From Sphaerolaimus hirsutus (taxonomy: Eukaryota > Nematoda > Chromadorea > Monhysterida > Sphaerolaimidae), in the NCBI GenBank assembly GCA_964036195.1, contig OZ038459.1, forward strand, positions 9,359,206 to 9,423,205: a DNA stretch of 64,000 nt, given 5' to 3'. Shown piece by piece: positions 24,501 through 63,746 of the stretch. Under the pieces are notes generated by a model, which saw only the letters and a list, made by a program, of their open reading frames with translations, searched no databases and was not told the origin of the DNA. Position 1 is the first letter of the stretch. The number at the start of each line of letters is the position of its first letter. The position numbers and the translations under genes were made by a program.

Positions 24501-27288
24501 TTGTGGTAGTTTTCTCTGGCGTTATCACTGGTTGATGAGGCAAAATATGGAATTTTCTGCCATCCATAATATCCTCTTGGACCTTCTCAATCACTCCTTG
24601 CTCCTCCTGTGCTTTCATGATTGCCTGAATTTTCTCTAGTAATTCTGGGTCTCTCTTGAGCCTGTTGGTGAGGTACCTGAACCTCTTGAACGCCATTGCT
24701 TTGTTATCTGGGAGTTCATGCAAATTCAGTTTGTACATGAACTTTACAGAGTACCGTCCATCTGGGTTTCTCTGTACACTCTCATTGAATTGCTTGATGG
24801 CCTCATCGTCCTCGACGAGGTCTGGCTGGTCCATTATGCCAATGGTATCCAGTCTGTCCATGTCTTTGACATTTGGTACAGGAGCAATTGACAACGGTGC
24901 TTCCTCGTACCACTTTTCTCTCTGAATTTGATGCACAATTGTGTTGACCACCACCGGATATGCACCATCCGTGGTCCATTGATTTCTGTTGCTCGTCAGC
25001 TGCCCACCTCCCATCAGCAATCCCAATTCTGATGGAATGACATACAATCCTGACGGAAGTCTGGTGGTGCTGGTGTTTCTGGACATCAAGTCCCAGAAAT
25101 AATTCAAGCCTACTATAATGTCTGGCTTGAACTTGCACTCTGTCCCTTTTCCTTTGGGAATTCTGTCTGCAAAGTAACTCTCATCCGGGAAGTACTTCTG
25201 CAGATACTTTTCGTCCTGTTCTGACACAGGCACTTTGACTTGTTCTGTGGTCAATGTCGGGACCACATCAGCCACCATATCAACTTTCTGGCCATTTCTG
25301 AGCCGCATTCTGAATTCCACTTGCTGTACCACTTTATAGTGCGGCTTTTCATTTCCGAAAGTGTACACCTGGATGTGGTGTTCACCTGTACTCTTCAGAT
25401 TGAGTTTCTTGGCCACTTTCTCTGACATGTACGTTCCCTGGGATCCTGTGTCCAAGAACGCTTGAATCTGTAGTGGTGGCTGTTCAGGCTCCATCTCTGT
25501 ATCCATTTCTGAAGCCTCAATCACGGTTCTGGCTGTCATCAGCATTGACATATTTCTGTTTACTGACAGGTTCACTGACGTATTCTGTTGCTTTGAATTT
25601 GGTTCTTTAACCACTGTGCTGGATATGGTTTCTGTCTCTACCATTTCTGGTCCAGCTTCTTCCACAGTGACACAATTCACTGTAGCCTTTCTCTGTTGGC
25701 TCTGTGCTGGTCGACCGGCCGTCGGCACAGACTTTCTGCCATTGTTTGCTGATTGCTGGCCATTCTGTTGACCATTCGCTCTGAACGCTGGAATTTGCCG
25801 TCCAGCGTTTCCATTGCCATTGTCACCAAATTTCTCTGGGCACACCGCAGTGTGGTGCCTATTGGACTTGCAATAGAAGCAACTTCTCGTAAATTGACAT
25901 TGATTCATGTAATGCCCTTTCTGCAGGCATCTCAGGCATCGCTCTGCCTTTGACAAAATCACTCTCCTTTCTCTGGCAGTTTTGAACTTTGGACACTTAT
26001 CGTTAAAGTGTAATTGCTGTGTGTCATTGCAGAACACACACGGCCTCCCAGGATTCATGAATCCAGCCTGTGGTGCACTCTGACCATTCTGGATCACAGA
26101 CATGCTCCCTGTGCTGGTCCTTGGGTTCTCTGGCCCTCTGAATCGATTCCCATTGCCTTGGAATCGATTATTGAATTGCTGTGCGCGTGGATTATTCCCA
26201 AATCCCTGGCGCGATTGCTGAACTGGTGCCTCAGTTTGCTGTGCATGCTGTACAGCCTCACTGAGCGCTAGCTGCTTGCCAAACAGCTTTCTGAATATCT
26301 CCACCGTCAAGGCTTCCTCAGTTCCCTGTTCCTTCTGGATTTCTCTGAGAACCTCGGGTGGCACTTTCTGTTGTAGCTGGCTCAACAGCATTGGATGTTC
26401 CACTGATTCACCCAGTGACTCCAACTGCTGGAGCAGCCTTTCAATTGCATCGAACAAAATTCTCATATCCTGACAGGTATTTCTGGCCTGTCGCAGCTTC
26501 ATGATATTACTCATCAGCGTGTTTCTGACCACAACTGGCTGGTCATATCTCTTTTTGAGCATTGCAATTGCGGGTGCATAATTCTCTGCTGTCACACTCA
26601 ATCCACTGATCATGCCAAATGCTGAGCCTTTCAGCAAGCTCCTCAAGTATGAGAACTTGGAAATGTCCTCCAAATCTGTCCGATTGTGGATGTGGGATTC
26701 GAACATTTGCCACCATGATCGAAATTTGACAATTTCCCCAGTAAACTGTTCCACTTCCAGTTTCTGTAATTTGACGCTTTTTGCTGTGGTTGCATTGGTT
26801 GAACTGGCCCCCGGAGCAGCTCCCTGAGCTGTCAGAGCCATCTGGGCAGCCATCTGCTGTATGAATGCTGTATTGACTTCATACATGGTATTTCCGCTCT
26901 GTTGCTGGATCATGTCTTGCAACTCTTCGATGTACACATTCATGGCTACAACTTTCTGTGTCACCAAGTCTGACATATTTGCATATTCCTCATATGAGTC
27001 TTGGTATATCTTCTGTTCTTGTTCCATCTGATCGGGTTCGTCAATGTCCTTGACGATGTCCCTCCATGCGTCAAATTGAGTTCTCACTGCAGTCATTGCA
27101 CTTTCCAATTTTGCACCCTCCTGTTTGATAGTTGCAATCACTCTTCTCATCTCTGTTCTCTTATCTTCCTTTGATGCTTCCGCAAATAGCTCCAGGCCAT
27201 ACTTGGCAAATTCTCTTGCCAATCTACTTTCCACCCTGTGCTTTGCTGGCCCCAGGGTCTTTCTGATGTGACCTGTTGGCGAAACCAT
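18574..27288 (-). CDS. BEL/Pao Gag-Pol-Env polyprotein, 2,904 aa
   Basis: One frame carries all functions. Gag is at about residues 1-400. Zinc knuckles at about 415-485 include C-x2-C-x4-H-x4-C at about 449-462 and a further knuckle at 471-484. An aspartic protease has DTGS at 613. The reverse transcriptase has its first aspartate near 978 and YVDN at about 1056-1059, the BEL form of YxDD. RNase H starts near 1238 (VDAS). The integrase has an H-H-C-C zinc motif at about 1600-1643 and catalytic D, D and E near 1672, 1734 and 1796. From about 2050 there is a hydrophobic signal-like segment, then a cysteine-rich ectodomain, a transmembrane helix at about 2675-2705 and a long basic tail. That is an envelope-like layout. 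The glycoprotein class is not identifiable by eye; class III (chuvirus-like) and class II (phlebovirus-like) envelopes are both known in BEL elements. No stop or frameshift is present. Confidence 0.92.
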   Translation of the reverse strand: MVSPTGHIRKTLGPAKHRVESRLAREFAKYGLELFAEASKEDKRTEMRRVIATIKQEGAKLESAMTAVRTQFDAWRDIVKDIDEPDQMEQEQKIYQDSYEEYANMSDLVTQKVVAMNVYIEELQDMIQQQSGNTMYEVNTAFIQQMAAQMALTAQGAAPGASSTNATTAKSVKLQKLEVEQFTGEIVKFRSWWQMFESHIHNRTDLEDISKFSYLRSLLKGSAFGMISGLSVTAENYAPAIAMLKKRYDQPVVVRNTLMSNIMKLRQARNTCQDMRILFDAIERLLQQLESLGESVEHPMLLSQLQQKVPPEVLREIQKEQGTEEALTVEIFRKLFGKQLALSEAVQHAQQTEAPVQQSRQGFGNNPRAQQFNNRFQGNGNRFRGPENPRTSTGSMSVIQNGQSAPQAGFMNPGRPCVFCNDTQQLHFNDKCPKFKTARERRVILSKAERCLRCLQKGHYMNQCQFTRSCFYCKSNRHHTAVCPEKFGDNGNGNAGRQIPAFRANGQQNGQQSANNGRKSVPTAGRPAQSQQRKATVNCVTVEEAGPEMVETETISSTVVKEPNSKQQNTSVNLSVNRNMSMLMTARTVIEASEMDTEMEPEQPPLQIQAFLDTGSQGTYMSEKVAKKLNLKSTGEHHIQVYTFGNEKPHYKVVQQVEFRMRLRNGQKVDMVADVVPTLTTEQVKVPVSEQDEKYLQKYFPDESYFADRIPKGKGTECKFKPDIIVGLNYFWDLMSRNTSTTRLPSGLYVIPSELGLLMGGGQLTSNRNQWTTDGAYPVVVNTIVHQIQREKWYEEAPLSIAPVPNVKDMDRLDTIGIMDQPDLVEDDEAIKQFNESVQRNPDGRYSVKFMYKLNLHELPDNKAMAFKRFRYLTNRLKRDPELLEKIQAIMKAQEEQGVIEKVQEDIMDGRKFHILPHQPVITPEKTTTKVREVYDASAKPPGMPSLNECMYRGPVILPQLVGMLMRFRLHRIALVADIEKAFLQISLQDSDRDVTRFLWYKDPTKPSMEDNIQIYRFARVPFGIICSPALLALTVRYHLNQAGTENAKLIDENLYVDNLILSVDTEQKAIELYQESKVLFTEAQMNLREWNSNNKSFTWQLAESDVAKEIVTTVLGMKWDTESDQMWLKTPKTVQQSQLSETDQKIKLPTKRTVAKVTAGCFDPMGLVSPVLLPAKRFLQTLWHSGPSAKEWDTPLSEEQTAIWQQLEIELLKVGQIKFNRNLNYQSGADAQLHIFVDASAMAYSAAAYICQKTENDSGTSSLLYSRLRLAPKKPEVTIPRLELLAMLIGSRMSKFIHKELKDVKFSQTVVWSDSTCCLKWLTTAKPLACFVKNRLDEIRKIQSETENMHIRHIAGLENPADMATRGMNMSELEGSNLWWKGPEWLMTGEWPEPKVEPVTPEVMAEIKREELKFPKASPIYLGATQQVVRDPDASNVQADESKQSNPLGIEIQRFSSLTKLLDATVYVMRFVRQMHKKRSKNDSQNGLSEIMKSICGTMKPQGIISIEERESAWKYWIKVTQQNHYKEVAKILATGHSKGSQDGKKAAADQQLIKWLNVQMHQDGILKCHGRMEHTDPQEVTVPLILLPATATVTQLIVRDQHEKLMHAGVQHTLAAIRQKYWITQGRRVIYNVTRTCPTCKKLGAKPYQLPPMPDLPETRVQRARPFQYTGLDYLGPVWYKVDKDHRKMWICLFTCMVTRAVHLESVLDMTAQEFLNAVRRFIARRGKPEAVISDNATQFKLTEKVLSTSTDKAINTGKEWSEMVKSGAVQTYCSQQQIQWNMTTPMAPWQGGVYERMVGITKKHFKAAVGHRMLTLQELLTLLPEVEAVINSRPISYIYGDVKSLRVLTPKDFLTGEGQIGAPQFDADKDGEFVPRMDNAAKLQKYWETTQQTLDKFWDLWHQEYIPSLRERTQVTHKHGRLTATQEPKVNEVVLIYEENMPRGAWRMGRIEQLERSKDGQIRSAKVRTANRNVVSRPLNQLYPLEINSKTMDIPETAVTVKVDLLDPAIVQKHVRNQSSNRDSVSNPVQNPAQRNSASDRVLRSATGKATATTSSLVIGMLCMVLMLTGMSESATLRKAGKAYSEVFSRTYVLETSTVRPPSLAAHHGLPPLPSEWPPKSVREMQTYERFKDAIKDHPVEQVISSQSQKYQICTSGRHGHALTVPEEVQCHIPPRNFVKAMKVTLYAQRQIPQKEKAYRCYIRIKEIITHTSFWGAKGITGNFEKYQQVGVVACNYARIHKMFRGTPLVEMEPRVWTTNQTLKVEYSWCCHDKENVVSNFYMEEGTVASLDGKTVISDLQDFSQCRAMMGHCRDHNYGITVWDTENFKHQCAYERIGRFKSEISGQTIIVSKLQAAYSHSNKTKRPIGSECVPGDTYYTDQGGVFIQFDRREDVPVEWAMPGKIVEARESTISGTLYARLDDRNSKFQFLQHVVREMTQAQFAIVWHQLCQLRKNQLDMLTQLFRIDPTLGIRAMLGRQDVHAEWAGEAIMFWECKEVQPYIVYQTGKVGETCYKYTPMRLDKDGPLWFKSPGSRDLVEKSPEEDCSHTTPHLYRNEHGQWKSAHGMVHVTETPIEMTWKGQWQAFTFDAPHLFTNIVNRATNFMDVRGQIQRLQNLEHVQNQLIDYTADMSLDPRVIRNSIEGIGAGIGQTAAGIGKAYGHYISGVSKGYTNFMGGMLKGPFQVIINTIAMLLGITILVAGIVAAGYLWYNWRIATGKPVIPPCVYTCIWKCIVCPFKCIWLCFRAVRYTIKKSTQKETNYPQRKVRKTELKPAIKRRARSNSTQSVRFARRAETEDRMAKSLSAYVQPDESSADEGQVRARNRDSVHMPDIRKFTSRERAGSDTGNYLLHHQARSALASPATGPVTSRTPTTSRTTTFTTEATVETPLITLAPTTTSM

Positions 27289-28517
27289 TTTTGCTGATGA
27301 ATTTTTCCTTCACTGTTTATTTTTATAGTGCGTCGCCTGTGACGCTTGTGACGCTTCTCTGCGTCTTTCTGTGCAGTGCTCTGTGCACCACGGATTTGTT
27401 GTGCCACGCACAATACCAATGCAGTCCTACAGGCCCCTGACGTGTTCTCACGCGTTGACCTTTACTGCACTGGCACCAGGTGTGTTCCTAAAGCCCCTGA
27501 CGTGATTGTTTACACGCGTTGACTTCAACACACCGGTCAAATCCACCTGGACAATAAACAATTTATTTGCCCAGCAGTGTGCGCCCAAAGAGGGTCCGTA
27601 CACACTCTTCCTGAGCGCTCTGGCGCTCTTTCTGGCACGCCTGTGTGCCTTGTGACCACGCCAGCCACTTGCTTTCCTGAGCGGCTCCTGTGCCGCTGTG
27701 CGCAGTGCTGCGCTTGCCGTGTCACCTGTGACACGTTTCTGTGCACTCTGGTGCACTTTCTGATTCTGGGCAGTGTTTCTGTACACTGCTCTGCAATTGC
27801 GCCTGTGCAATGCAGAATTTCTGGCACTTTTATGCTGTCTGATCTGATGGTACCGAGCAGGCACAGCGTGTATATTTGATGGGAGCTCCGCAAAGCCCCT
27901 ACACGCTACCAAGTATCCTAATACTTGGTTTTCAAATCCACTCTCTGTCAGCTACAGCCCTCTGTCAGCTACAGCCCTTTGTACACTGATACCCCTACTT
28001 TTGCACTTCCGAGGTATGAGTCCACTCTCACCCAGTGGAGCGAGGGACCTCCGCGAATGCCCAAAAACAGCCCTTTGACTAGCGTGGCTTTGTGGCGATC
28101 CTGTCTCCGTCAGGTCACCCTCCCTTGGCATAGGAAGGACGTGCGAGCGGTCACTGGAGTCCAGATGTCCAGGAGCGTCCAGCGAAAGTTTGACCACCGT
28201 CCGACAATGACTCCTTGTCAAATGCCGGTGCCGCCCAGCGTCTAGCACCTTGCCAGAACACTGGTGAAAGCTGCCTGAAATCCTGACAGGCTTGTCAGAA
28301 CTCCAGTGTCCTCCGCGCGTGAGCGTAGAACCGCTCCCAGGATGTAGACAGGAGTGCCGTGACTTTGGCACAGTGCTGTCTGCAAATCAACAGCCAACGC
28401 TCAGCCAAGGCCAATTGATGTTCAGCAGGACTTTTGAAGTTCTGCCAACTGCCGCACAATGTCCGTTCCGGCTTGGTGATAGCACAATGTCATGCAATCA
28501 CCCTGCTCGCTGCGCCA

Positions 28518-29815
28518 TGTGATGAAGCCACCGAAGTCAGCGTCTTCTACCACCGAATCCAGCAGCTCCAAGACCGTAGTGAGAAACGGCCTTTAGAGTG
28601 GTTGATTTCCCGTTGTAGCCGAACGTCCACTTGTCGACAGCCAAGTTGAGTTTATTTCGTGGTTGCGTGTTGAAAGGGGTTCGAAATTGTTTCAGGTACT
28701 TTATTTGATCAGATACAGCCACATATAAAAGCGCAAAGCCTAGCGAGCTTCCTAGTCGAAGTTTCTATCGCTAGCTTATTTTCGTTCAGAAGCTTGGGGT
28801 CCGCAGACTGGAGTAAAAACTCTCAAAGTAGCTAAGACACGGAAATCACGTATAGAAAAACAGCTACAGTAATTTCCTAATACAAATGCACAAATAAGAC
28901 ATAAATGCAACAAATAAACACATCTAGCCGAAACAGTTGCCTTATACTGCGCGTGCATACATTCAAATAATTATGGTAAAGAAATACCAGGTACAAATTG
29001 GGCTAATGGAAAAACTATTAATCTTGAGGCGCGAAGTCGGCAAACTCGGCCGATTTACTAATTTGCTTCAATTTGTCAGAAAACATTGACGCACATTGGA
29101 ACTAATAAATTAGGGTTTGAAACTGTAAATAGTAGTGCAAATGTTCCTAATGACGTAAATAGAATAAGGTATATTCAACATGATAATAATAATCACTTCC
29201 TGGAAACGTATGTTGAATAATCTAGTAAAATTGGGACTTATTCGAGGTAAATGGGTATTGTAATTGAGCAGAGTCTTTAATATATTTGATTGAGCGGGGT
29301 ATTATAATTATTAAGTAAATATAAATAGTTGTGAGCGAGGTTATGACAATTATGCCTATGCGAAGGGCTTTGTACAGTAAATGCTAGTTGTACGCAGGGC
29401 ACCATTTCTCTATTAGGACGCTGGTCTAGATAATTACGCGGTACGTAAATAATTACAAGATTTGACTTTTGTAAATTGCAAGTAAATAATGCAAATGTAT
29501 ATATAATAATGATCAGAAAATTACGGCGAGTTGAATGAGCCTAATTTCATATTAATACACCTAATAATAACTTATTTGACTTTTTAACCTAAATATTTCA
29601 CATAAACATATCTTTTACTCATAAAACACTTTCCTAATTAAATATTCTCCATGGATAAATAATATAGTGCAGGAAATATATTTTGATATTTTGCGTGGTA
29701 AATAAATATAGTGCATGAAAAGGTAAAACAGTGCAAATAAGTAAATGTGCGAATATGAGCCTAATTATCAATTCTCTGTATTTCTTTATCCATTCATTTT
29801 GCCACGGTCAGCACA
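28518..29815 (-). repeat. BEL 5' LTR (right copy)
   Basis: 1,298 bp, the promoter-bearing LTR for the minus-strand element, one base shorter than its partner because of a small difference near 29087. Confidence 0.92.
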
Positions 29816-29820
29816 TGTGA

Positions 29821-32800
29821 TGCAGTCAATGGGCCTGTTAGCGCATAAAGTGTGCAACAAAATCAACCGACCAGCTGCGTACCTGAATGGACCTGATAAT
29901 GGGGCGGATGTGTCGATTGTGACCCATCGTGTGGTCAAGAAGCTGGGGCTGACTGTCAAACCCACCAGTGAGAAACTACATGCTGTAAATGGAACTGCAT
30001 TGGACACAAACGGTTGTGTCAACATTCAAATTGAATACGCCGGTGGCAAAGCGATGCACACCTGCTTCATATCTGACAACATTGATTATGACATCCTACT
30101 GGGTGAGGATGTGCTGCCAAAACTGGGCATCCGCATGACAGCTGCAGATGGAAGTAACCTGTTACCGGAAGCTGACACTGTCAATGCTTCACCTGACATT
30201 CGCCAACAAATGGTGCAGCACTGCAACCTGGAAGACGACGATGAATCAGTACTGGTGATTTTTGCTGACAAGGAGGGCCAGCTGATACAAGCTGCCCACG
30301 TGCCGCTGTTAGATTGCAAACCGGTCACTGAATTGGTAATTAACAAGCTGCATGAGCTGACAAAGGACGATTGGTTGAAAATGTTAAATATTGGAATGTG
30401 TTCTGACAATGATTGACAGAAAGTGGTTGACACACTCTTCACGCTACGTCACGCATTCAGCTCCAACTACAAGGCTGGGACATGCCAGAATGTCGATGAA
30501 ATTGGCTGTACCGAGGTTGAACATGAAATCGACATGGGAGATACGCTACCGTTCAAAGTACCACCGCGCCGCATTCCACTCAAGTTACGTCCTGAAGTGG
30601 AAAAAACGCTGAAAGATTTGTTGGATCAAGGCTGCATTGTGCCGTCGAACAGCAACTACAGCAGCGCTTTCGTTTTAGCAAAGAAGAAGGATGGATCGTG
30701 GCGATTTTGCGTTGATTTCCGCCAGCTGAATTTGAACACGAGACGCGACAGCTACCCGCTGCCACATATGGACGACATGCTTGATCTGTGGCCTGGTCAA
30801 AAATTTTTTATCCACCCTGGATATCAAGTGCGGCTACTACAACATCAGAATCAAGAAGGAGGACCAGCACAAGACTGTGTTTACTGCCCTCGACCAGCTC
30901 TTTGAGTGGCGTTTGGATTGCACAACGCTCCTGCGACATTTCAACGTGCCATGAACAACATCCTGATGGATCACAAGGCATTTTGCCGTGCTTATTTGGA
31001 CGATATTATCGTTGCTTCTGCAACTTTCGATGAGCACATTGAGCACTTGAAAGCTGTCATCTCCACCATGTGCAATGCTGGCATGAGACTGAATCCCCGC
31101 AAATGTCATTTTTTGAAGGACAGAATCCAGTACCTGGGCCACGTGATTAGTGCCGATGGAATCAGTGTTGATCCTGATAAAGCAGCTGCGATTCACGACT
31201 ACGCGCTACCCATCACCAAGAAAGATGGAGCAGGATTTTTGGGACTCGCCAGCTACATGCAAAGGTTCCATCACAACTTGTCGCATCGTCTCGTGCCGCT
31301 ACGTAAATTTTTCCAAGTACCGGAAATAAAGGCAGAGAAATCGGAATGGACAGATGAGCTGAAGAAGTTGTTTCAGCAAATTTGCAATGAGATGGGTGAC
31401 CCACGAAGTTTGGCTATGCCCGTGCCTGGCCGTGACTATGTCATTACCACTGACGCAAGTACAGATGGACTTGGTGCGATGTTGGAGCAAGCCAATGATG
31501 CTGGACAACTGCAACCGATTGCAAGCCGAGTCACTGCACCTGCTGAGAAATGCTACTGGGCTACGGAATTGGAAGCTCGTGGAGTGATTTATGCTCTGGA
31601 GACATTTCGCCCATACATCACTGGGGAAAAAGTGACTGTGTTCACTGATCACCACCCGCTGACTCACTTGTTCCAGAAGAATAGCCCCTCACATTGCCTA
31701 TACCGATGGTGCTTAGTGCTACATCAATTTGACGTCACTCTTCGCTACAAGCCTGAGATCAAGAACCAGGTAGCAGACACACTTTCATGCGCACCTGCGG
31801 GCACCATTCCTGTTCGCATGGGGGGAGGAAAGTCAATCGATGAACATGAAATGACACTTGACACAGTGTGCAACATTCAAGTGTCACACATGTTGGCAAA
31901 ACCGGTGACAACAAAGCCTGTTGCTGTGAACAACATTGTTTTGGCTGACAAGAAGGAGAGAGAAGAGATGCTGCAATGGCATCATGAGGGACGATGGGCC
32001 GCACATGCAAGCGCGCAGAAGACATATCAGCATCTACGCCCATTCTATTCCCATGCAACTTGGCCGACTCTTGCTACTGATGTACAAGCATACTGCAAGC
32101 AATGCAATGTCTGCAAGCAACGATTAACTCGCTACGAGGTGCTGCCGCTACTGCCAAGGCCGCCTCCAGATCAACCACGCCGCCGATGGCACATGGACTA
32201 TTCCACATTCATGCCAAACTCCTACAAAGGTCCGCGCTACTGTCTCGTCGCCATCGATGCAATGTCGCGCTTCATCGAGGCAAAATCGTGTAATGCGACT
32301 GATGCAAAAAATGCTGTCAAGATGTTTAATGAGATTGTGACAAAACACGGAGTTCCTGAAGAAGTGGTTACAGACAGTGGAACGCACTTCAACTGCCATG
32401 AGTTCCAGTCAATGCTGCAGAAGCATCAAACCAAGCTACACACAACTACACCTGGCTCGAAGACAAGCAACGGCATCTGTGAATGTGCCATCTGCACCTT
32501 ACAGGATATTCTCAGAAAGAAACAAGCTGACGATGGTCGAGCATGGAATCTGATACTGCCTGATGCTGTAGCTGCCTACAATGCAACTGAGCACTCGGCT
32601 ACTGGCGCTACACCTTTTGAAGTCCACTATGGTTCGAAACGTGCAACAACAGGACATGAGTTTGAACCAGCTCCTCCGCTGATTGACTTCTGGAAGTGCA
32701 TCAACAAACGTGTGGAGGCTGCACAACAGAAAGCTGCCAACACTGCTTTCTCCACCAATCCGAACACTCGCTTCAGAATTGGTGATGCTGTTTTTGTCCG

Positions 32801-32969
32801 AGACGCACCCGCCATGGGAAGCTGCAAAGCGAAACTCGACTTGCCAAATTCCCGCAAAGGAGAAATAGAATCGTTTCCATCACCAAAGGCTGCAGTGATC
32901 AAGTTCACGAATGGCAAGCATTGTACTGTGCCAATCAACATGCTGCAACCCAGATTCACAAAGACTTGA
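29821..32969 (+). pseudogene. Gypsy pol: protease, RT, RNase H, integrase, defective
   Basis: Protease: the active site reads D-N-G instead of D-T-G at about 29898, probably inactivating. A TGA near 30414 stops the frame between protease and reverse transcriptase. RT continues in the same frame, is shifted at about 30810 and shifted back at about 30905, leaving roughly 95 nt out of frame. The catalytic YLDD motif is at about 30992. RNase H has TDAS (about 31450), an ELEA glutamate and TDHH (about 31650). The integrase has an H-H-C-C region at about 31980-32115, then catalytic D near 32195, D in TDSG near 32370 and a glutamate near 32480. The stop is at 32969. This copy cannot make a complete Pol. 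Confidence 0.85.
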
Positions 32970-35268: not shown

Positions 35269-38200
35269 ATGCATGCATCACTGCTAATCTTGACAGCGCT
35301 GGTATCATTGGCTCAGTGCCAAGACTTGGCTGCCCTCACAAGTTTGTTCAGCGGCGTCGGCGGCGGCGGCGGCTTTCCCGACATCAGCAAGCTGGGCAAC
35401 CTGGCCAATCTGGGCAAGTTGAGCGACCTATCCAGGTGACAATCCCAGACACTGTAAAATGCCCTGTAAAATGTCAAATGTCATGCAAAGTGGCAAAAGT
35501 CGTGTAAAATACCCTGCAAAATGGATACCGAATTGCCATTTTGCAGTGCTTTTCACACGACTTTTGCCATTTTGCATGACATTTGACATTTGACAGGGCA
35601 TTTTACAGGGTCTGGGACTGCCCCAGTTTGACAAATCTCGGCGGCGGCGGCATTCCCGGACTGACTGGAGGTTCCGCTACTGGAAGCTCGCCGCAGGATT
35701 GCAACAAGAAATACGGATCTAACCCGAGGTCAGATTTTTGAGTTACGACGAAGTGAGCTGTGGAAAGATCTGGCGAGGCGATACGCACGCGTGCATACAT
35801 TTACCGTATTTCCTCGAAATACCTTTCCCCTTGTTTAACCCCCCCCCCCCCTCAAAATTTCCACTCTGAAAAAAAAAAACCCCGGGGGGGTAATTCGAGG
35901 AAAGACGGTATTTAATTATGTACCGTATTTCCTCGAAATACCCCCCTCGTTTAACCCCCCCCCCCCACTCTCGAGACCACTATGAAACAATCACCCCCCC
36001 TCGAAATCCCCTCCCCCCAGATTGAGTGTAAAGAGAACGCACATGACAAATACTGCAGTTTGTGTTCTGCGTAGTGCAGAACACACGTTAAAACAATGTC
36101 GTAATCACGTTAGAACAGTGTTTATACCATCCACGTACTACTATTAGTCTACAGGAGTCTATACATGTCAGTTATTGATGCATTTTTCTACCCCAGTGTA
36201 CATCACAAACGACGATTTTGTACTAGGATTTGAAAAAATTTCTGGCGAAATAATACCCCCCTCGAAATACCGCCCCCTCGTCTAACCCCCCCCCCCTCTC
36301 GGGACCACTATGAAACATCAAACAATCACCCCCCGAGGGGTATTTCGAGGAAATACGGTAGGTAAATAAACAACCATTTGAAAAATACAGAAAGTCAACC
36401 CCGAAGGCATAAATGAAAACAAAAAAAAAACAATGGAGATAATTTGTGAGTTGGGTAGAAAAATCAGTGAAAATGTTGGGTGGGGAAACTGTTAGTGATG
36501 GAATGACGTCACAGAGCTGGCGCCGGAGGGAGTCCCCAAATATCGTGTTTTCTCTGCTGGTGTCGTTGGCTCCAGGCGCACTTTCTGGATAGCGCTCTTT
36601 TTCTGGCGCTTTTTCATCACTAGTAACCAGAGTTGGAAAAACGTATTTACGTTTACCCGAAATACCCGGTTATTCGGGTATTTATACTTACGTTTACGTT
36701 TACGTTTTCCAAAAATACCATTACGTTTTGTTACGTTTTCCTGGCACAATTACCCGGGTACCAGAGAAAACGTAAAAATCCAGCTACACAAAACCACGCA
36801 TCTGTAAAATGTGCTCTATTACCGCAGTCACATATTGATTTTGTGTAAATAGCTATACCACTGCACCTAAATAATGCCAATTAAGTTGTGTAATTGTCTT
36901 TTTGACAGTGAAAATATTGTAAATAAATGCAACCAATGAATTGTAAATGTAATCAATGTGTCAATTTTGGAATATGAAGAGTGTCTAGGAATGTGTTACC
37001 TATAAATACAAGCAGAAAAGTGGAATGTGTGTAGGGTTCAAACGATATATCGTATCGAATATCGAATATCGGATATCGACCATTTTTTCATATCGAATAT
37101 CGAATATCGATATCGAAAATTTTGAAAAAATATCGAATATCGATATCGAAAATTTTGAAAAAATATCGAATATCGATATCGAATATCGACCATTTTTTCG
37201 ATATATCGAACCTGTATTGTGTCCCTAAATTAAGTTATCATTTTCATTTTGACATATTTATGATTGATCTGATTTGCTTATAGTATTGTATCTGATGAGT
37301 AAAAGTACAGTATTTATAATGTTATTTTTGTTGGAGTGCTAAATTTGGAGCTAGAAAATGCTGATATGCTATTTTTTGCAACATGCCATTAAGCAATTAG
37401 GTTATAAGTATGAACTGTAATATCTACCAATTGTTATTTGTCTGATACACTTTGGTTCATTATGTTTTTCTTCCATGTTCTACTTTTGACTGATGTAAAC
37501 CTTTTTAAATCACATGTAACATTCACATTTCAGTAAAGAGATGATTAACCATGTGTGCAACCACATGAAAATACAATATGCCACTTGAAATATGCCTTGC
37601 TACACCAAAAGCAAATCGCAATATCGAATATCGAAAATATCGAAATATCGAATATCGAATATCGACCATTTTTCAATATCGAATATCGAATATCGATATC
37701 GAGGTTCCATATCGTATCGATATCGAATATCGAGTTTCAGAAAAAAATATCGAATATCGAATATCGATATCGAAAAGTCATATCGTTTGAACCCTAAATG
37801 TGTGTATGTATTTCTGTTGTGGATTTTACAATCATTCACTGTTTTGTTTTATTCATATCCTGCTGAAGTTTTGCTGTAATGTAATTTTTCATGAAGAAGT
37901 GTGCTAATCCATGTGTTTGCTAAACTGCATGGCCATCAGCACCAACATTTAAATAAACAAATAGACCAACATTCTAATAAGTTTTTTTTGTTTGCTATGA
38001 AATGTAAGTGAAAAATGTGGATGGAAATTATGTAGGTATACATTGTTGAAAATGTCACAACAATGGTTTTTTCAGAAGCTCTGCTCATATGGGGCACTTC
38101 TTGAAATTTTTACGTTTACGTTTTATTTTACGTTTTCCCCGGTATTTTAAAAATACCTTACGTTTTAGTATTTATACTTTTGATTTGGAAAACGTATTTA

Positions 38201-41200
38201 CGTTTACGTTTACGTTTTTCAAAAATACCAGTATTTGTACAACTCTGCTAGTAACTGCGCCTGATCTAAATATTCATGACGTTAAAGCGGGAATTAGAGC
38301 TCAGCGTCGATTCGACGTGAAATGACGACGTGAAATGATGTCGTGAAATTAATTACACAAGTGTGGATCATGCTACAGGTCTACAATTTTCTAAGGATAA
38401 TATATGAATCAATACCTTAATCGTGTCCAATACTGAGTGTTATCAGCCACAACTAGAGCGAATTGAAAAATTCAATTTTTATCATTTCACATCATCATCA
38501 TTTCACGTCACAGTGTCAGGGAACAACTTGACATTTCACGTCAGACTTTTGCAAGCAATAGTCTGACGTGAAATGTCAAGTTGTTCCCTGACGTAAAATG
38601 ATGACGTGGAATGATAAAAATTGAATTTTTCAATTCGTTCTAGTTGTGGCTGATAACACTCAGTATTGGACACGATTAAGGTATTGATTCATATATTATC
38701 CTTAGAAAATTGTAGACCCGTAGCTAGGGTTCAAACGATATGACTTTTCGATATCGATATTCGATATTTTTTTCTGAAACTCGATATTCGATATCGATAC
38801 GATATGGAACCTCGATATCGATATTCGATATTCGATATTGAAAAATGGTCGATATTCAATATTCGATATTTCGATATTTTCGATATTCGATATTGCGATT
38901 TGCTTTTGGTGTAGCAAGGCATATTTCAAGTGGCATATTGTATTTTCATGTGGTTGCACACATGGTTAATCATCTCTTTACTGAAATGTGAATGTTACAT
39001 GTGATTTAAAAAGGTTTACATCAGTCAAAAGTAGAACATGGAAGAAAAACATAATGAACCAAAGTGTATCAGACAAATAACAATTGGTAGATATTACAGT
39101 TCATACTTATAACCTAATTGCTTAATGGCATGTTGCAAAAAATAGCATATCAGCATTTTCTAGCTCCAAATTTAGCACTCCAACAAAAATAACATTATAA
39201 AATACTGTACTTTTACTCATCAGATACAATACTATAAGCAAATCAGATCAATCATAAATATGTCAAAATGAAAATGATAACTTAATTTAGGGACACAATA
39301 CAGGTTCGATATATCGAAAAAATGGTCGATATTCGATATCGATATTCGATATTTTTTCAAAATTTTCGATATCGATATTCGATATTCGATATTTTTTCAA
39401 AATTTTCGATATCGATATTCGATATTCGATATGAAAAAATGGTCGATATCCGATATTCGATATTCGATACGATATATCGTTTGAACCCTACCCGTAGCAT
39501 GATCCACACTCGTGTAATTAATTTCACGACATCATTCCACGTCGTCATTTCACGTCGAATCGACGCTGAGCTCTAATTCCCGCTTTAAAGTGACGGTAAA
39601 AACCACTTAAACTCACATCATAAAACTGAATTAATTTTGGGTATCACTCCGATGACCAACGAACAAAACCCTCTATTCACACGCAGATGCCAAGGAAAGC
39701 TGGATTCGAGCGTGATAGTCAGTGGTTTGGCGTCAAAGTCCGGCCTCCCACTGGACATGTTCGCGGGCGGCGGCACCCCGGCGGACATGTGCGCACAGAG
39801 ACAAGAGGAGAACACTTGGGACACTCTGATGAAGGCTATCAGGACGGGCAAAATTAACAACGCGGCAGTGTGCAAGTACGTGCACTCTGACTTTTTACGC
39901 ACATTGGAGAGTGCAACTGCTGATTCCGAACACAGATTCTCTATCAGAGAAACACAAATAAATGTAGAAGAAACTAGCAAAAATAACAAACAGGTACAAG
40001 GCGCTTTTGGCGCTAATGTTTACGCTAGTGCCAGTCGCCAAAAACGTGATGGTAAAATGGCGCCAAGCGTCACGGCGCTTTCTGAGACTGTGGCGCCACA
40101 GAAATTTAGCGCCAAGGCGCTTCTACATTACTATTCAACTAACAACTCTCTTGCCACTATTTACGTCGCGGTATAGCGAACAATAAACATTCATTCAGGG
40201 CGGCTATTAACAAGGAGAAGCGAGAGTGCGAGCGCAACCTGAAGACAATGTGCGAATTGCTGAACAGTAACACCCAACTATCCATGCAGTCTATGTGAGT
40301 CGTACTTACATGCAATGAATGGCGCCCTTAAAGATAAACCTGGGGTCCATTCCGCAAGTGGAAAAGTAAAAAAAACCATCTGAGAAGTGAAGTTAACTTC
40401 TTACTTTACACTTCACTCAGGCTTAAACTTTTTACATGCCATTTCATTTCTCACTTCTTCATTTTATCTTACGTCTCTACTTGCGGCAGAGGTATCTTGA
40501 ATTTAGACCCTCCGAGTGGTTGGATAGATAGCTGAGCGGCCTTCGGGATCGGGATAGATAGATAGCTGGAAAAAATTTGGAGGGGGGGGGGGGTTGGGGG
40601 GGGTTGTGGTGTTCGATATATAGGTAGGCTATTTCAGGGTGTAGAAGGAATAAAATGGAGAAAAATCGCTAAAAGTAGGTGTAAAAAAGCTCAAAATCGG
40701 TATATGAGAGCATATAGTACTAAAAATAGCTGAAAATAGGAACAACAACTAGTATTTTGGAGGTGAAAATGTATAAAAAGGTATGAAAAATATCGATTTT
40801 GAGCGAAAATTGGGGTATAGTTTCTCAAAAAGCGCTCCAGATAGGTAGATAGCTGAGCGATTTGGGGGGAGGGGTTAGGGGGTAGTAGCCCAAAATTTTG
40901 CCCCCGGGATAGATAGATAGCTGAGCGGCCTTCAGGATAGATAGATAGCTGGGCGGTTTGGGGGGGGGGGTAACCCCACCATTGGATACCCCTGACTTGC
41001 GGAATTGGCGTCAGGTCCCAGTCCCAGAGCCTGTGATACATATAATGCCAAATGTCCCACCCACAGTAGTTGGAAATCTCGGTTGTCAACTAGTGTGCGT
41101 ATGGCCAATATGTCGAAAGTCATGTAAAATGGCAAAAAAAAAACTTTTTTACTGGCCATTTGACACTTTGTCACACATTTAACATGTGACATGTCTGGAA

Positions 41201-41638
41201 GTGGCCCCAGAGCGAGACTTACACACTACCCCCCATTTGCAGCTTGGACCCGTGCCTGGCCAAGCTGGTGTTCAACGGCGCGTCGAAGTCAAAAGCGGAC
41301 AAGACGCTCGAGCGCGCCTGCCAGCAGATCGGCGACACGGCCAGCGGCAAGTCGGACGCCACCGGCCTGGTGCCAATCCCAGACCCTGTGAATTGCCCTG
41401 TCAAATGTCAAATGTCACGCAAAGTGTCAAAAGTCATGTGAAATGCCCTGCAAAATGGCAACTCGGTTGCCATTTTGCAGGGCATTTTACATGACTTTTG
41501 ACACGTTGCATGACACTTGACATTTTACAGGGCATTTTACAGGGTCTGAGACTGCCCCAGATCGACACGCTTGTCGGGGGTGGCAGGGATCTGGCCGGGG
41601 CGGCCGTTGTTAATAAGTTGCTGTCTGGCGCCGGGTAG
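35269..41638 (+). CDS. Six-exon gene, secreted Cys-containing protein of unknown family
   Basis: Exons 35269-35435, 35627-35728, 39687-39875, 40199-40294, 41243-41369 and 41561-41638 join in frame to 252 residues plus stop. The phases are 2, 2, 2, 2 and 0, with GT-AG at every junction. Residues 1-18 are a signal peptide (cleavage after QC or at CQ|D). The next 60 residues are Gly/Leu-rich with two GGGG blocks. The rest is mostly helical with eight cysteines, suggesting disulfides and secretion. I recognise no family. Introns 1 and 5 are both 191 nt and are related inverted-repeat elements (introner-like). Intron 2 (35729-39686) is filled by MITEs, and intron 4 carries M8 and another introner relative. 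Intron 3 is short and rich in GGCGCC motifs. Confidence 0.7.
35436..35626 (+). mobile_element. Introner-like intron 1 (191 nt)
   Basis: The whole intron is one imperfect palindrome. It starts GTGACAATCCCAGACACTG and ends TCTGGGACTGCCCCAG, with the arms meeting near 35531. The terminal inverted repeat supplies both the GT and the AG. By eye it is about 85% identical, without gaps, to intron 5 (41370-41560). The flanking exon bases are AG|GT-like. No clear target duplication is visible in the exons. Confidence 0.8.
35806..36360. repeat. Two CCGTATTTCCTCG MITE copies in intron 2
   Basis: A short copy (about 35806-35911) and a longer one (about 35923-36358) each begin ACCGTATTTCCTCGAAATAC and end with the inverse CGAGGAAATACGG. 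The interiors consist of C-runs and TCGAAAT blocks. Confidence 0.6.
36493..36622. mobile_element. Short TAGTGATGG MITE
   Basis: 130 bp with ends TAGTGATGGAATGACG and TTTTTCATCACTA and GGCGC motifs inside. I could not match an 8-bp duplication. The M4 element inserted right at its right edge. Confidence 0.5.
36628..38247. mobile_element. hAT-like MITE M4 (TTTACG family), contains M5
   Basis: Ends CAGAGTTGGAAAAACG and a matching ACAACTCTG, flanked by perfect CTAGTAAC (36620-36627 and 38248-38255). Subterminal arrays are TTTACG/GTTTAC repeats. It is closely related in its ends to the element at 49567. Confidence 0.85.
37032..37796. mobile_element. hAT-like MITE M5 (ATCGAATATCG family), nested in M4
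   Basis: Ends TAGGGTTCAAACGATAT and CGTTTGAACCCTA with perfect 8-bp duplication AATGTGTG (37024-37031 and 37797-37804). Subterminal arrays of ATCGAATATCGATATC flank a unique core of about 400 bp. Its siblings are M7 (opposite orientation) and M14. Confidence 0.88.
38286..39584. mobile_element. piggyBac-like MITE, contains M7
   Basis: Inverted arms start AGCGGGAATTAGAGCTCAGC and end with its complement, with TTAA on both sides (38282-38285 and 39585-39588). Inner arms contain repeated TTTCACGTCA motifs. The ends resemble the 5577-5998 element. Confidence 0.7.
38725..39490. mobile_element. hAT-like MITE M7 (ATCGAATATCG family)
   Basis: Same family as M5 in the opposite orientation, with duplication CCCGTAGC (38717-38724 and 39491-39498). 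M5 and M7 lie about 1 kb apart in the same intron and could pair in the transcript. Confidence 0.88.
40487..40994. mobile_element. hAT-like MITE M8 (CTATCTAT family) in intron 4
   Basis: Ends CAGAGGTATCTTGAA and TTGGATACCCCTG, with perfect duplication ACTTGCGG (40479-40486 and 40995-41002). It is the reverse orientation of the M1 family, with GATAGATAG blocks and a G-run near 40582-40606. Confidence 0.85.
41011..41210 (+). mobile_element. Degenerate introner relative inside intron 4
   Basis: The left end GGTCCCAGTCCCAGAGCCTGT and the right end ACATGTCTGGAAGTGGCCCCAG match the termini of the 191-nt introns. AGTCATGTAAAATGGC lies between them. It is about 30 nt from the exon 5 acceptor and may be the original 3' part of this intron. 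Confidence 0.5.
41370..41560 (+). mobile_element. Introner-like intron 5 (191 nt)
   Basis: The exact intron between exons 5 and 6 (phase 0). It starts GTGCCAATCCCAGACCCTG and ends GGTCTGAGACTGCCCCAG, fully palindromic around about 41465. It has the same length and architecture as intron 1 of this gene, so both introns come from one element family. Confidence 0.82.
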
Positions 41639-45394: not shown

Positions 45395-47889
45395 CTACTC
45401 AGAGTGAATTTTCTTTCCCTTCACCACGCCATTCAGTCCATGGACCCCGTGGGGTTCCTTGCTTGGCACTTTGCCAGCTGGCGCCTGCTGCTGCACCCGT
45501 CTCTTGCTGATGTAGGCCATGTAAAAGTAGCGCACGAACAGCACGAAGTAGGTGGAGTACATGGCGAAGCAGAAGTACATGTTGGACAATTCGATTTTGC
45601 ACGGATGTCCAAGGAGTGTCTCCTTTATCGTGATATAACACACGGTGCACCCGACCACCATTTGGCTGGGTTGAATGGGAAAATTGGTTATGGAAGATTT
45701 TTTAAAATATTATGTGATCACTACTAAATATTTACTGATCTATTTGTGTGAAAGACAGACTAGCTTATAAACTAAAACGCTGAATCCTTTCACAATTTTT
45801 GGAATGAATGACAGCTCGATGCATAAACAGTGATTGAAAGTCATTTAGGGCTCCCACACACTAGTTGACATCAAAAAAATGTCAACTAAATTCAGCTAGA
45901 TTTTAGTTAATTATGTGATTTCAACATACCTATGTGATGGAGCAGAGTTTATTTAGTTGACATTTTTTGCGATGTCAACTAGTGTGTGGCCCCTTACTCG
46001 TTCAAGCATTGGGCAGCGCCAAATTTGCGCAAATGTATTTCTACATTCCCCATTCCACCCCCCCCCCCAACCCACCTAATCTGCAAGGTCGTAACACCGG
46101 CACTGAGCCACTTTGGCGGGCGGGTAGCTAGCACGCTGGTGCCGGCGTAGTAGGCGTACATGAGCGCGTGCACGCAGTAGTTCATCCAGGTGAACCAGCG
46201 ACCGGCGCAGGTGTGCGCGCGTACCGCGTGCCAAGTGTAGGAGAGCACGGTCGCGTGGTGGAACCAGTGCAGGAAGGTCACCGGTCTGCGAGGGGCGTAT
46301 ATACCCACTTGAATGGGGTCACGGCTGGGTTTCATCGTACATATTTGTATAGCGCGGGGGTTCAATATAAATATATTGTTTTTCAAGGTTTAGAAGAAGA
46401 AAAGGGGGAAAATGGCTGAAAATAGGTTACAAATCGCTGAAAACAGGTGAAAAATTATTTTGTTTCATCGAAATTATACCTGAAAATACGCGATAACCTA
46501 CGTGAACTAGTAATGTGAAAATCGCTATGATTGTATGAAAATTAGCGATTTTGAGTGAAAATTGAGGCAAAAGGTTTCAAAAATTGCTAAGATTGTATGA
46601 AAATTAGCGATTTTGAGTGGAAATTGAGGCAAATTGTTTCAAAAATCGCTTATAGATAGATGTCGATTTGGGGGTGGGTCTAGCGATAGTAGCCAAAAAA
46701 TTTGCTTAGGGATAGATAGATATTTAGCTGGAGGGCCCCGGGGCATGAGAGATAGCTGGAGCGTTTCCATACTGAACCCCTGTATAGCGCTGAAAGACAT
46801 AAACCGAAAAATTCGGTTTTGTAATTTCCGGCACCAGGCAACAGACTTTTATTATTTATCGGTGGGATCATTCTTCAGCATACCCTAGACCAAGCTGGAA
46901 AGTTGAACGATATCTGTAAAACTGTAAAAAGTCGCCCAAAACTGCCCGCAACCGTCGCCTACCTCTTTCTCAACACCAAAAACGCGGTGTCTCCCAATTC
47001 CAAAACCTTGCTCAGCGCGAACTTCTCCTCCCAAAAGGCGGCGAAACTATTGCCAATGTCAACTGTGCACACGCTGGGGGTGAACCCATAATTTGTCAAC
47101 ACATGAATCAACTCTGCAGTGCAGCGCCAGGCGCCCAGCGCGCTGAACACCGCCAGGGCCACGTTCCACAGGAACAAACAGCCGCGCAATTGGAACGCGG
47201 CCCTGTGGCGCATCAGGCGCTGCCCCAGCACGATGCCTGATAGGTAGACTGTGATAACGATAAGTGAGGCCGGCCAGAAGTAATTCTGCGAGTGAATTTT
47301 TTATTGATATTAAGGGATGGCGGAATGTGGATATCAGCAGTTTCCCCGCTAGGGCGTGAGTTTTAGGATAAGTTTTACCTGTCACTGGAGAAGATTTGAA
47401 AAAGTTTCGAAAATATCTTATGCACTGCATCTGGTGCCTGTCCCAGGCCTGTAACATGTAAAGTGTAAAAGACCCTGTAAAATGTCAGGTGTCATGTAAA
47501 AGCCACTTTAAAGTGGCATGTGTATCCAAAACTAATTGTATCGTATCCAAATCCCATGTATTTGTATCCAGATCTTATGTTCAAAATTAAGATTTGGAAC
47601 CGATACAATTCGCCACTTTACAGGGCCTTTTACATGACACCTGACATTTTACAGGGTCTTTTACATGACACAAATTTTACATGGTATGGCACTGCCCCTG
47701 GCTACAAAAAACTCAACCCAGAAAAACCGAAACCACGCAAAGAGAATGAAATTCACCTACCCACAGGAACATCGTGGTGGGTTCCACATCGAAATTTTTC
47801 TCAAAATCGAACACATATCCATCATATCTGGCCGCGCCAACCGTCCCATCTTCATTAGTTTTAGGCCCACTTAAGCCCAATTTTTCCAT
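45395..47889 (-). CDS. ELOVL6: Very-long-chain fatty acid elongase, ELOVL6-like
   Basis: Exons on the minus strand are 47889-47761, 47285-46963, 46285-46076 and 45665-45395. Phases 0, 2 and 2 give 310 residues, against about 265-300 in the family. The N-terminus has FDFEKNFD, as in ELOVL6. Exon 2 carries two membrane spans and the LSKVLELGDT segment. The junction of exons 2 and 3 builds RKRPVTFLHWFHH, containing the HxxHH iron-binding box of ELO condensing enzymes. Exon 3 continues with the MNYCVHALMYAYY signature, and exon 4 has the last spans and a basic tail. ELO proteins catalyse condensation of malonyl-CoA with acyl-CoA in the endoplasmic reticulum; ELOVL6 prefers C16 substrates. Each of the three introns contains one transposon: an introner relative, M11 and a hairpin element. 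Confidence 0.88.
45848..45990. mobile_element. Short hairpin MITE in elongase intron 3 (Harbinger-like)
   Basis: Inverted arms with CACACACTAGTTGACATC and GGG/CCC ends, bounded by TTA on both sides, suggest a PIF/Harbinger-type 3-bp duplication. A second member is at 48211-48439. Confidence 0.55.
46356..46782. mobile_element. hAT-like MITE M11 in elongase intron 2
   Basis: Ends GGGGGTTCAAT and ACTGAACCCCTG, perfect duplication TATAGCGC (46348-46355 and 46783-46790). It belongs to the CTATCTAT group by its GATAGATAG blocks and AATCGCT motifs, without the long G-run. Confidence 0.8.
47431..47701. mobile_element. Introner relative inside elongase intron 1
   Basis: Left end CTGGTGCCTGTCCCAGGCCTG and right end ATGGCACTGCCCCTGG, with inner TGTAAAATGTCAGGTGTCATG arms and a central loop of TATCCAAAT-type sequence. 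It occupies most of the 475-nt intron but not its splice sites: the host intron's own GT and AG lie outside. Confidence 0.65.
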
Positions 47890-48660
47890 TGTCCTGGTTC
47901 GATTTTTTGGCACAAAAGCGTCCGTGAGCGGTAAAAATATAATTGAGCTCGAATAGGGTTAGAAAATAAGTTTAGTAGAGATTATTGCGGATTTTTGGTG
48001 AATGGTTAAAGTAGGAGGCAGTGAAATTTGTTTGAGTGCGGGAATCCTGTTTATGCGGACGGAATTATGGCTGGGAAATAGACAATCGTTGAGAAAAATT
48101 TTGAATATTTAAATGTCATGAATTTGACCAAGCCTGCAAAAAATTCAATTGTGAACACGTCCGATTAAACATCTGGTATTATTTATGTTTACATAAACAT
48201 TTACACTTTTGGGCCCCCACACACTGGATGTCAACTGAATTCGTGTCAACTAAATGTCAACTGAATTTAAGTGATACTGTGATTTCAACTTATCTATCTG
48301 ATAGAGCATAGTTAGTTTTACATCATGACACTTCATTTTCATTGTTCCTGTTAAGTGTGATGCTTTTTACAAACTTCTTGTATTATTCAATTGACACTGA
48401 GTTGACGCGAATTTGCGATGTCAACTGGTGTGTGGGCCCTTTACAGCATGGAGCATGATCACTATGGTGCGTAGTCAAGTAAAAACGATCGTTAAGTAAA
48501 TAACAAAACAGTTGTTATTCTTTGATGAGATCTGTGAACCGGCAACCGAAACACAACCGCGTAACTAAGAAAATGAATCAAGCATGAGCTGTGTTATACG
48601 CGATTCCATGCGGAATATTTAAATGCAAAATAGAATTTGGAAATTCGTCACTGCGCAGTA
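47890..48660. other. 5' flank of elongase gene, with hairpin MITE
   Basis: Presumptive promoter region for the minus-strand elongase gene. 48211-48439 is a second CACACACTGG...CCAGTGTGTG hairpin element related to 45848-45990. No TATA box was identified. Confidence 0.45.
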
Positions 48661-62737: not shown

Positions 62738-63746
62738 CAGGGTTGGCAAAATCTCAGAAAAGAATAAAAATAAAATTAAAATAAAATGGAAAATTGAAGA
62801 ATAAAATAAAATAAAATGGAAAATTTCAAAATAAAAATAAAAATGGTATAAAAATTCCAATTTTTGTAAAAAATTTGTAAAATTGTATACAAATTCATAT
62901 TTTTGTAAAAATTGTATAAAAATTCATATTTTTTGTAAAAAAAATTCTGTTGTTTATATTTCAGCCTGTTCATTCGCGGAGCTGGGGCAGTCCCAAGCCA
63001 TGTAAAGTGTCAAAATGTCATATGTAATGGAATGGAAAGTGTCAATTTTCATGAAAATGTTAAGTAAAGTGTCAATTGTCATGACAAATATAAATTAAAG
63101 TGGAAACTGTAAAGCAAATTGTATCCAAATCTTATCTTTTGTATCCAAATCTGGTTGTTTTTGTAACCAAATCTTCTGTGAACATTTGGATACAAAAACA
63201 TAAGATTTGGATACCAAAATATAAGGTTTGGATACCAAGACATAAGATTCGGATACACAATTTACACTCTGCACAACATTTGTCATGACAATTATACTTT
63301 GCTTGACATTTGAGATGCCAATTGACTCTTTACTACATTAGTCATGACAATTGACACTTCACATGATGTTTTACAAATGCGCCCAGCACACTCCAGTAAT
63401 CCTTCTACTGAAAATGCAAACCATTCTTATCGATAATTGTAACGTAACACTTGCAACTAGCTAACAATACCTACTGCATGCAACTTTTGCAAAGTAATGG
63501 AAAAATTTGTCACACGTTTTTCATGTTTAGGTCTAATTATCACATTTTTCTGACCTTGCATGCAAGATTCTGATTTTTTGTAAAATTTCTGTAAATTTTT
63601 TTTGTAAAATCGTCCATTTTATTATTTTATTATTATTTTGGAATAAAATAAAATAAAATGAAACAAGAATAAAATTAAAATAAAATTCATTTTTATACAA
63701 TTTTTATACAATTTGTATACACATGATTTTTATAAAACCAACCCTG
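62738..63746. mobile_element. hAT-like MITE M18 (AAATAAAAT family)
   Basis: Ends CAGGGTTGGCAAAATC and AACCAACCCTG, flanked by GTCGGGAC (62730-62737 and 63747-63754), sharing its left duplication with M17. Subterminal arrays are AAATAAAAT. An introner relative is at about 62982-63386. Confidence 0.82.
62982..63386 (-). mobile_element. Introner relative inside M18
   Basis: Begins CTGGGGCAGTCCCAAGCC and ends near AATGCGCCCAG. The arms are of ATGTAAAGTGTCAA/TTGACACTTCACAT type, and the centre has ATCCAAATCTTAT motifs like those of the copy at 47431. No gene context, so it shows the family also inserts outside genes. Confidence 0.55.

Follow-up and report, generated by a model that had tools for sequence, protein, structure and literature searches.

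How new introns originate is a long-standing question, and one gene in a 64,000-nucleotide (nt) stretch of Sphaerolaimus hirsutus DNA (assembly GCA_964036195.1, contig OZ038459.1, positions 9,359,206 to 9,423,205; hereafter the window) raises it directly. In an original prediction, introns 1 and 5 of this gene had been taken for two copies of one inverted-repeat element, and for cases of introner-like intron gain, in which a transposon insertion creates the intron. Analysis of the window and of its source assembly (348 Mb, 762 contigs) supports that interpretation. Very probably, the element is a non-autonomous hairpin DNA transposon, that is, a miniature inverted-repeat transposable element (MITE), which acts as an introner in Y-CWG-R sites, duplicating the CWG triplet and being spliced out. 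The relevant parts of the host gene, in window positions, are these:

35269..35435, + strand: exon 1, from the spliced frame, with a hydrophobic N-terminus seen by eye.
35433..35435, + strand: first target-triplet copy, CAG, closing exon 1.
35436..35626, + strand: intron 1, GT-AG, consisting of the element (35436-35623) and the second target triplet, CAG (35624-35626).
35627..35728, + strand: exon 2, from the spliced frame.
39687..39875, + strand: exon 3, from the spliced frame.
40199..40294, + strand: exon 4, from the spliced frame.
41243..41369, + strand: exon 5, from the spliced frame.
41367..41369, + strand: first target-triplet copy, CTG, closing exon 5.
41370..41560, + strand: intron 5, GT-AG, consisting of the element (41370-41557) and the second triplet, now CAG (41558-41560), a discordant CTG/CAG pair.
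41561..41638, + strand: exon 6, from the spliced frame, stop codon included.

Joined together, the six exons form an open frame of 252 aa, the product of which is Gly-rich and probably secreted. Introns 2-4 (3,958, 323 and 948 nt) are GT-AG introns; introns 1-4 are in phase 2 and intron 5 is in phase 0. None of 2,608 candidates from a large protein database matched the protein at E <= 1, and no orthologue was found there; an Rfam scan of the whole window at gathering thresholds gave no match. Inside intron 2 (window 37031-39591) lie nested palindromes, whose 448-bp and 187-bp arms are 100% complementary; they are rich in ATATCGAATATCG repeats and are perhaps very recent insertions.

Introns 1 and 5 are each 191 nt long and align without gaps, with 165 of the 191 positions identical (86%), and nothing other than the element separates their exons, as had been proposed. 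They had been called fully palindromic; the palindromes are in fact near-perfect, with arms of 85 and 89 nt that are 91% and 90% complementary and enclose spacers of 11 and 3 nt, respectively. Together with short flanks, intron 5 is predicted to fold into a single hairpin (−144.5 kcal/mol; z = −20.8, in standard deviations relative to shuffled sequences). The terminal inverted repeats had been held to supply both splice sites. This applies to the donor, since the element itself starts with GT, and fails for the acceptor, whose AG comes from the duplicated target triplet. Nor is the length of the element fixed, as had been suggested: introns with CWG on both sides ranged from 119 to about 440 nt among the first 70 consecutive copies described below. 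Both window copies are one C shorter than most copies, giving 191 nt, and 192 nt is the commonest length among copies ranked by similarity.

The original prediction had called for a genome-wide search with the element. A 22-nt pattern, composed of the target triplet and the first 19 nt of the element, gave 3,286 matches in the assembly, and the reversed control gave none. For inspection we used two sets of loci. The first came from a similarity search with intron 5, in which 40 of 3,349 candidates were scored and all 40 inspected; this set includes intron 5 and is biased towards it. The second comprised the first 90 listed pattern matches (L041-L130), all on contig C1, which involved no choice by similarity and were all selected by an intact left end. 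Triplets were counted in 125 unique loci of the 130, five having been dropped because of identical 20-nt left flanks, and as the element is palindromic the orientation of each copy was set from the element ends. The commonest unit was [CWG]GTGCCANTCCCAGACC...GGTCTGGGANTGCCCC[CWG], with CAG or CTG bounding both sides in 103 of the 125 loci; a clean CWG was missing on one or both sides in the other 22. The target rule is not strict, as seen in L027, which has CAT on both sides. When the empty site was reconstructed for the 87 clean loci of 105, it showed a palindromic preference, C-N-N-Y-CWG-R-N-N-G. A 3-bp CWG duplication in a palindromic target is a mark of cut-and-paste insertion, and the family has the other attributes of a MITE: terminal inverted repeats, a target duplication of fixed length, many copies, and a size too short to code. 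Median divergence from the consensus was 6.7% (67 copies of 180-200 nt), and the first pair of the hairpin lay close to both ends in 106 of 123 folded copies. The 19-nt element end had no match in viral contigs.

To assess the effect on coding sequence, the element plus one triplet was removed and the joined protein compared with Pfam or PDB. At 15 host-gene loci the element plus one triplet constitutes the entire intron, in phase 0 or 2, and at 13 of these a protein match spans the junction (marked below by a hyphen; triplet pairs are given as left/right). Among CTG/CTG copies, matches crossed the junction in five conserved domains, namely an ionotropic glutamate receptor (iGluR; SYTANL-AAFLTVERM, gap-free against solved structures), the vesicular monoamine transporter VMAT (L036; MGYL-VDLRHV, also gap-free to solved structures), AMPK gamma (L095; KL-VVFDT, without a gap), OSCP1 and CHGN (chondroitin N-acetylgalactosaminyltransferase). 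CTG/CAG copies gave spanning matches in a guanylate cyclase, CHGN and an innexin (FTDAW-EQYTENYCW, without a gap). For CAG/CAG copies they were found in an M23/LECT2-like protein (just below the Pfam cut-off), a kinase, EAAT (weak, E 0.0009), OSCP1 and a leucine-rich repeat (LRR) protein, whose junction-spanning LRR_4 match is below the cut-off. The two exceptions are a Wnt gene (CTG/CTG), in which the Pfam match extends from the junction onwards without crossing it, and the cadherin-like L126 (CAG/CAG), in which a match below the cut-off stops there. The distance between the two OSCP1 copies (L070/L071) is 835 bp, and that between the CHGN copies (L088/L089) 1 kb; since the members of each pair match consecutive parts of the profile, each pair presumably shares one gene. 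A further copy, in a TRP-type channel (L021), carries CTG to its left and CGG to its right; an intron restoring the frame would then be GT-CG. L012 gave no match in Pfam and is not counted as evidence, and a guess that L037 is GBF1-like was dropped after nothing was found in Pfam or PDB.

Similarity thus extends up to the splice boundaries, as placed from the sequence, in introns 1 and 5 and in 15 loci in unrelated genes, and insertion into exons with restoration of the frame is seen at the gap-free junctions of iGluR, VMAT, AMPK gamma and innexin. Judged by sequence, the family has the properties of introners, with one splice site apparently carried by the element and the other derived from the target duplication. 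The interpretation as introner-like intron gain is therefore supported by the target duplications, the palindromic target logo, the thousands of copies and the restored conserved frames.

Insertions also appear to be oriented. In an unbiased Pfam scan of 150 open reading frames from sense flanks (86 loci) and 150 from antisense flanks (105 loci), the sense flanks matched 11 Pfam families with one member each, probably representing 8 loci when four Ig families are counted as one, and the antisense flanks matched none. All eight loci with homology are thus in sense (two-sided p = 0.008). Flanks of at least 50% GC occurred at 43 of 85 consecutive unique loci compared with 53 of 292 distant stretches (p = 1e-8). 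The copies thus favour exon-like DNA, but about half of them lie elsewhere.

On this basis we propose the following route. A transposase, probably of the DDE type, would insert the hairpin element into Y-CWG-R sites, often within coding exons, with duplication of the CWG triplet. The start of the element, GTGCCA, would then serve as a 5′ splice site directly behind the first triplet, and the duplicated second triplet would become the last three bases of the intron and supply the acceptor. Splicing out the element with one triplet would return the original coding sequence exactly. A CAG target would yield a GT-AG intron and a CTG target a GT-TG intron. TG can probably serve in the latter because the two intron ends are drawn together by the hairpin and there is an AG a few bases upstream. 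CTG-target introns would begin with a tolerated, inferior TG acceptor, and drift or selection would move it towards CAG by a T-to-A change; intron 5 of the window, with its CTG/CAG pair, may exemplify such a matured acceptor.

The triplets are informative in this respect. The 125 unique loci comprised 44 CAG/CAG, 38 CTG/CTG, 17 CTG/CAG and 4 CAG/CTG pairs, and 22 others. A copy with CTG on both sides that starts with GT can restore the exact frame only as an intron ending in TG; the restored frames of six CTG/CTG genes therefore suggest that CTG/CTG copies are GT-TG introns. The second triplet is more often CAG than the first, as if TG acceptors mature into AG. The discordance is 17 versus 4 (p = 0.007), 12 versus 1 in GC-rich flanks, and 14 versus 4 (p = 0.03) without L013 (a near-duplicate of L008), L111 and L117 (right end unclear). 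Genome-wide, CTG was found at 1,522 of 3,286 left ends versus 934 of 2,271 right ends (Fisher p = 0.00013), in a test that treats the ends as independent samples even though many belong to the same copies. An AG lies no more than 28 nt upstream of the intron end in 34 of the 38 CTG/CTG copies, most commonly at 19 nt. As far as the available part of the report goes, human TG 3′ splice sites, described in 36 genes, likewise lie close to an AG, with a limit of 28 nt; there TG is an alternative site only, whereas here it would be the acceptor that restores the frame exactly (PMC2374985).

That human precedent also lends weight to a different explanation, in which the CAG-target copies are real introns while the CTG/CTG copies represent alleles that are unspliced, damaged or recent; GT-TG splicing would then not occur. 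The T-to-A discordance points the same way, since it suggests that TG is inferior. However, CTG/CTG copies are found in the five conserved and otherwise open domains with a match across the junction, and in the Wnt gene, where the match starts at it; two of them (one in OSCP1, one in CHGN) presumably share their gene with another introner. Nor do the CTG/CTG copies seem to be younger than those with CAG/CAG: in GC-rich flanks, the identity of the arms, a rough measure of age, was 0.903 (n = 23) for CTG/CTG and 0.895 (n = 22) for CAG/CAG (p = 0.47). They are also as common there (28 versus 24 copies). We therefore consider this explanation unlikely.

Alternatively, CTG copies might be spliced at other canonical sites, with a few residues added, removed or replaced, for example by means of a GC donor at +2 and the TTTTACAG acceptor of the element, which would add seven residues. 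A GC-AG junction of this kind is available in L002, L036, L033 and L089, along with other in-frame options. L070, on the other hand, has no in-frame GT/GC-AG alternative within the range searched, and altered or extra residues would disrupt parts of iGluR and VMAT that are highly conserved and, when joined exactly, align to solved structures with no gap across the junction. We regard such splicing as improbable.

Removal of the elements from DNA rather than RNA, by precise somatic excision between the CWG repeats, has a precedent in the internal eliminated sequences of ciliates, and would suit the exact CWG...CWG layout, the tolerance of both triplets and the strong hairpin. Excision requires neither the restriction of Pfam matches to the sense orientation, with GT at the 5′ end, nor the bias of the right triplet towards CAG, and we regard it as very improbable. 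That an ordinary MITE simply jumped into older introns, as the two relatives within longer introns listed below (41012-41210 and 47431-47700) might suggest, is scarcely credible when 15 loci have no intron sequence beyond the element and one triplet, and the match spans the junction at 13 of them.

Several observations nevertheless weigh against the introner model set out above. The element is not confined to exon-like DNA, as flanks of less than 50% GC were found for 42 of the 85 consecutive unique copies. A codon-usage score, which is crude, self-trained and too weak to stand alone, called 4 loci antisense (L015, L035, L062 and L107, of which L015 and L107 looked wrong by eye) versus 25 sense, and 10 of those 25 are seed loci. 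No Pfam match was obtained for 3 of 10, 10 of 10 (three of them mis-entered) and 4 of 10 peptides in three sets, although two of the first three, VMAT and EAAT, were later matched in PDB. Compared with the consensus, GTGCCA is a weak donor, and the stem leaves little space for the usual branch point and pyrimidine tract. The four CAG/CTG pairs run counter to the maturation trend. In-frame GT/GC-AG alternatives were present at five of the six CTG/CTG loci checked, with 11 options in L002, 2 in L036, 10 in L033, 21 in L095 and 8 in L089. Finally, the part of the human study available reports that U2 introns never have TG as their only acceptor (PMC2374985).

PIF/Harbinger elements make target duplications of 3 bp, and here too a 3-bp duplication occurs in a palindromic, CWG-centred target. 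The target also recalls that of Harbinger3_DR, described in the available portion of PMC3016246 as palindromic with a CCWGG centre, with the CWG triplet being duplicated in the present family. Harbinger-type transposases (PF13359, DDE_4) are represented in the genome by at least 163 matches (150 of 306 candidates scored), more than 100 of them with nearly equal scores. The sole locus inspected among the 163 (L131, C15:6823000-6827300) has no introner-like ends within 4.3 kb, which counts against the model. As this single PF13359 copy lacks matching ends, we have not assigned the introner family to PIF/Harbinger; its target resembles that of PIF/Harbinger, and membership is unproven. A frequent 192-nt surplus in the DDE match had raised the idea of an introner inside the transposase gene; by eye, L131 shows a pair of short stretches bounded by ordinary GT...AG, apparently common introns that interrupt the gene, and contains no introner.

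Diverged relatives of the element are also present in the window:

41012..41210, + strand: degenerate relative within the ordinary intron 4 of the host gene, flanked by CAG at 41012-41014 and 41208-41210; weak blastn matches, ends set by eye.
47431..47700, + strand: longer diverged relative flanked on either side by CTG (element 47434-47697), antisense, by eye, in the first intron of a minus-strand ELO-type elongase gene.
About 62982..63391, − strand: longer diverged relative amid other repeats, its left side without a clear CWG.

The ELO-type fatty acid elongase gene occupies window 45400-47890 on the minus strand (Pfam E 8.5e-22 on one exon). Elsewhere, one uninterrupted frame of 2,911 aa (window 18574-27309, minus strand) resembles, by eye, a gag-protease-RT-integrase retroelement carrying an additional C-terminal segment. 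Gypsy-like pieces at 29745-32969 (plus strand) include reverse transcriptase, RNase H and integrase domains, with an aspartyl protease match below the cut-off, and a coding frame at 10718-11392 (minus strand) consists of the tandem repeat ESTDEPLESTDEP.

Comparison with known systems, for each of which part of the source was available, places the family among introners with features of its own. Gozashti et al. 2022 describe introners with target duplications and inverted repeats, including an example from Chrysochromulina that carries its 5′ site and co-opts the 3′ site (PMC9860276). The present family resembles these in being short, non-autonomous DNA elements that make introns in exons, one splice site being carried and the other coming from the target duplication. 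It differs in its 3-bp CWG duplication, as opposed to 4 bp in the Chrysochromulina example, in that nearly the whole element is one hairpin, and in its CTG targets, which predict TG acceptors (PMC9860276). In the dinoflagellate Amoebophrya, hairpin-forming inverted repeats also join exon ends, with border direct repeats of 3-5 nt and tolerance of non-canonical ends, but repeats and splice motifs are varied there, in contrast to the one family, GT start and CWG triplet found here (PMC7789003). The tunicate Fritillaria borealis, an animal, likewise has a triplet immediately ahead of the 5′ splice site that recurs as the final three bases of the intron (YAY there, CWG here). In that species only 5% of introns are canonical and the commonest non-canonical ends are AG/AC and AG/AT, whereas the present family retains GT and the host gene's three ordinary introns are of the GT-AG type (PMC13326754). 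Within the portions of the open-licence literature available, no account of this hairpin introner family was found. Introners themselves are known from algae and animals; what appears from sequence to be new is a CWG-targeted hairpin introner family whose CTG targets imply GT-TG introns.

Judged by genes such as Wnt and innexin, the host is apparently an animal, and across animals and land plants, which make up 835 of the 3,325 genomes surveyed, introners were reported, in the part of that survey available, from two groups only, both of them animals (PMC9860276). In one apparent animal genome, a single family with more than 3,000 recognisable copies brings together the choice of target, its duplication, and splice sites drawn from element and target. 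It also provides a natural comparison of AG with TG acceptors in introns that are otherwise alike, which bears on TG as a sole 3′ splice site and on the improvement of weak sites. GC-rich CTG/CTG loci account for 18 of the 85 consecutive copies and hence, by rough extrapolation, for some 700 of the 3,286. We lean towards the view that this genome contains hundreds of young animal introns with an exact, frame-restoring TG 3′ end, which would have been born from a CTG-targeted hairpin transposon, be spliced with the aid of the hairpin and a nearby AG, and be evolving towards AG by point mutation. If this is true, the birth of introns and the maturation of their splice sites would both be visible within one family.

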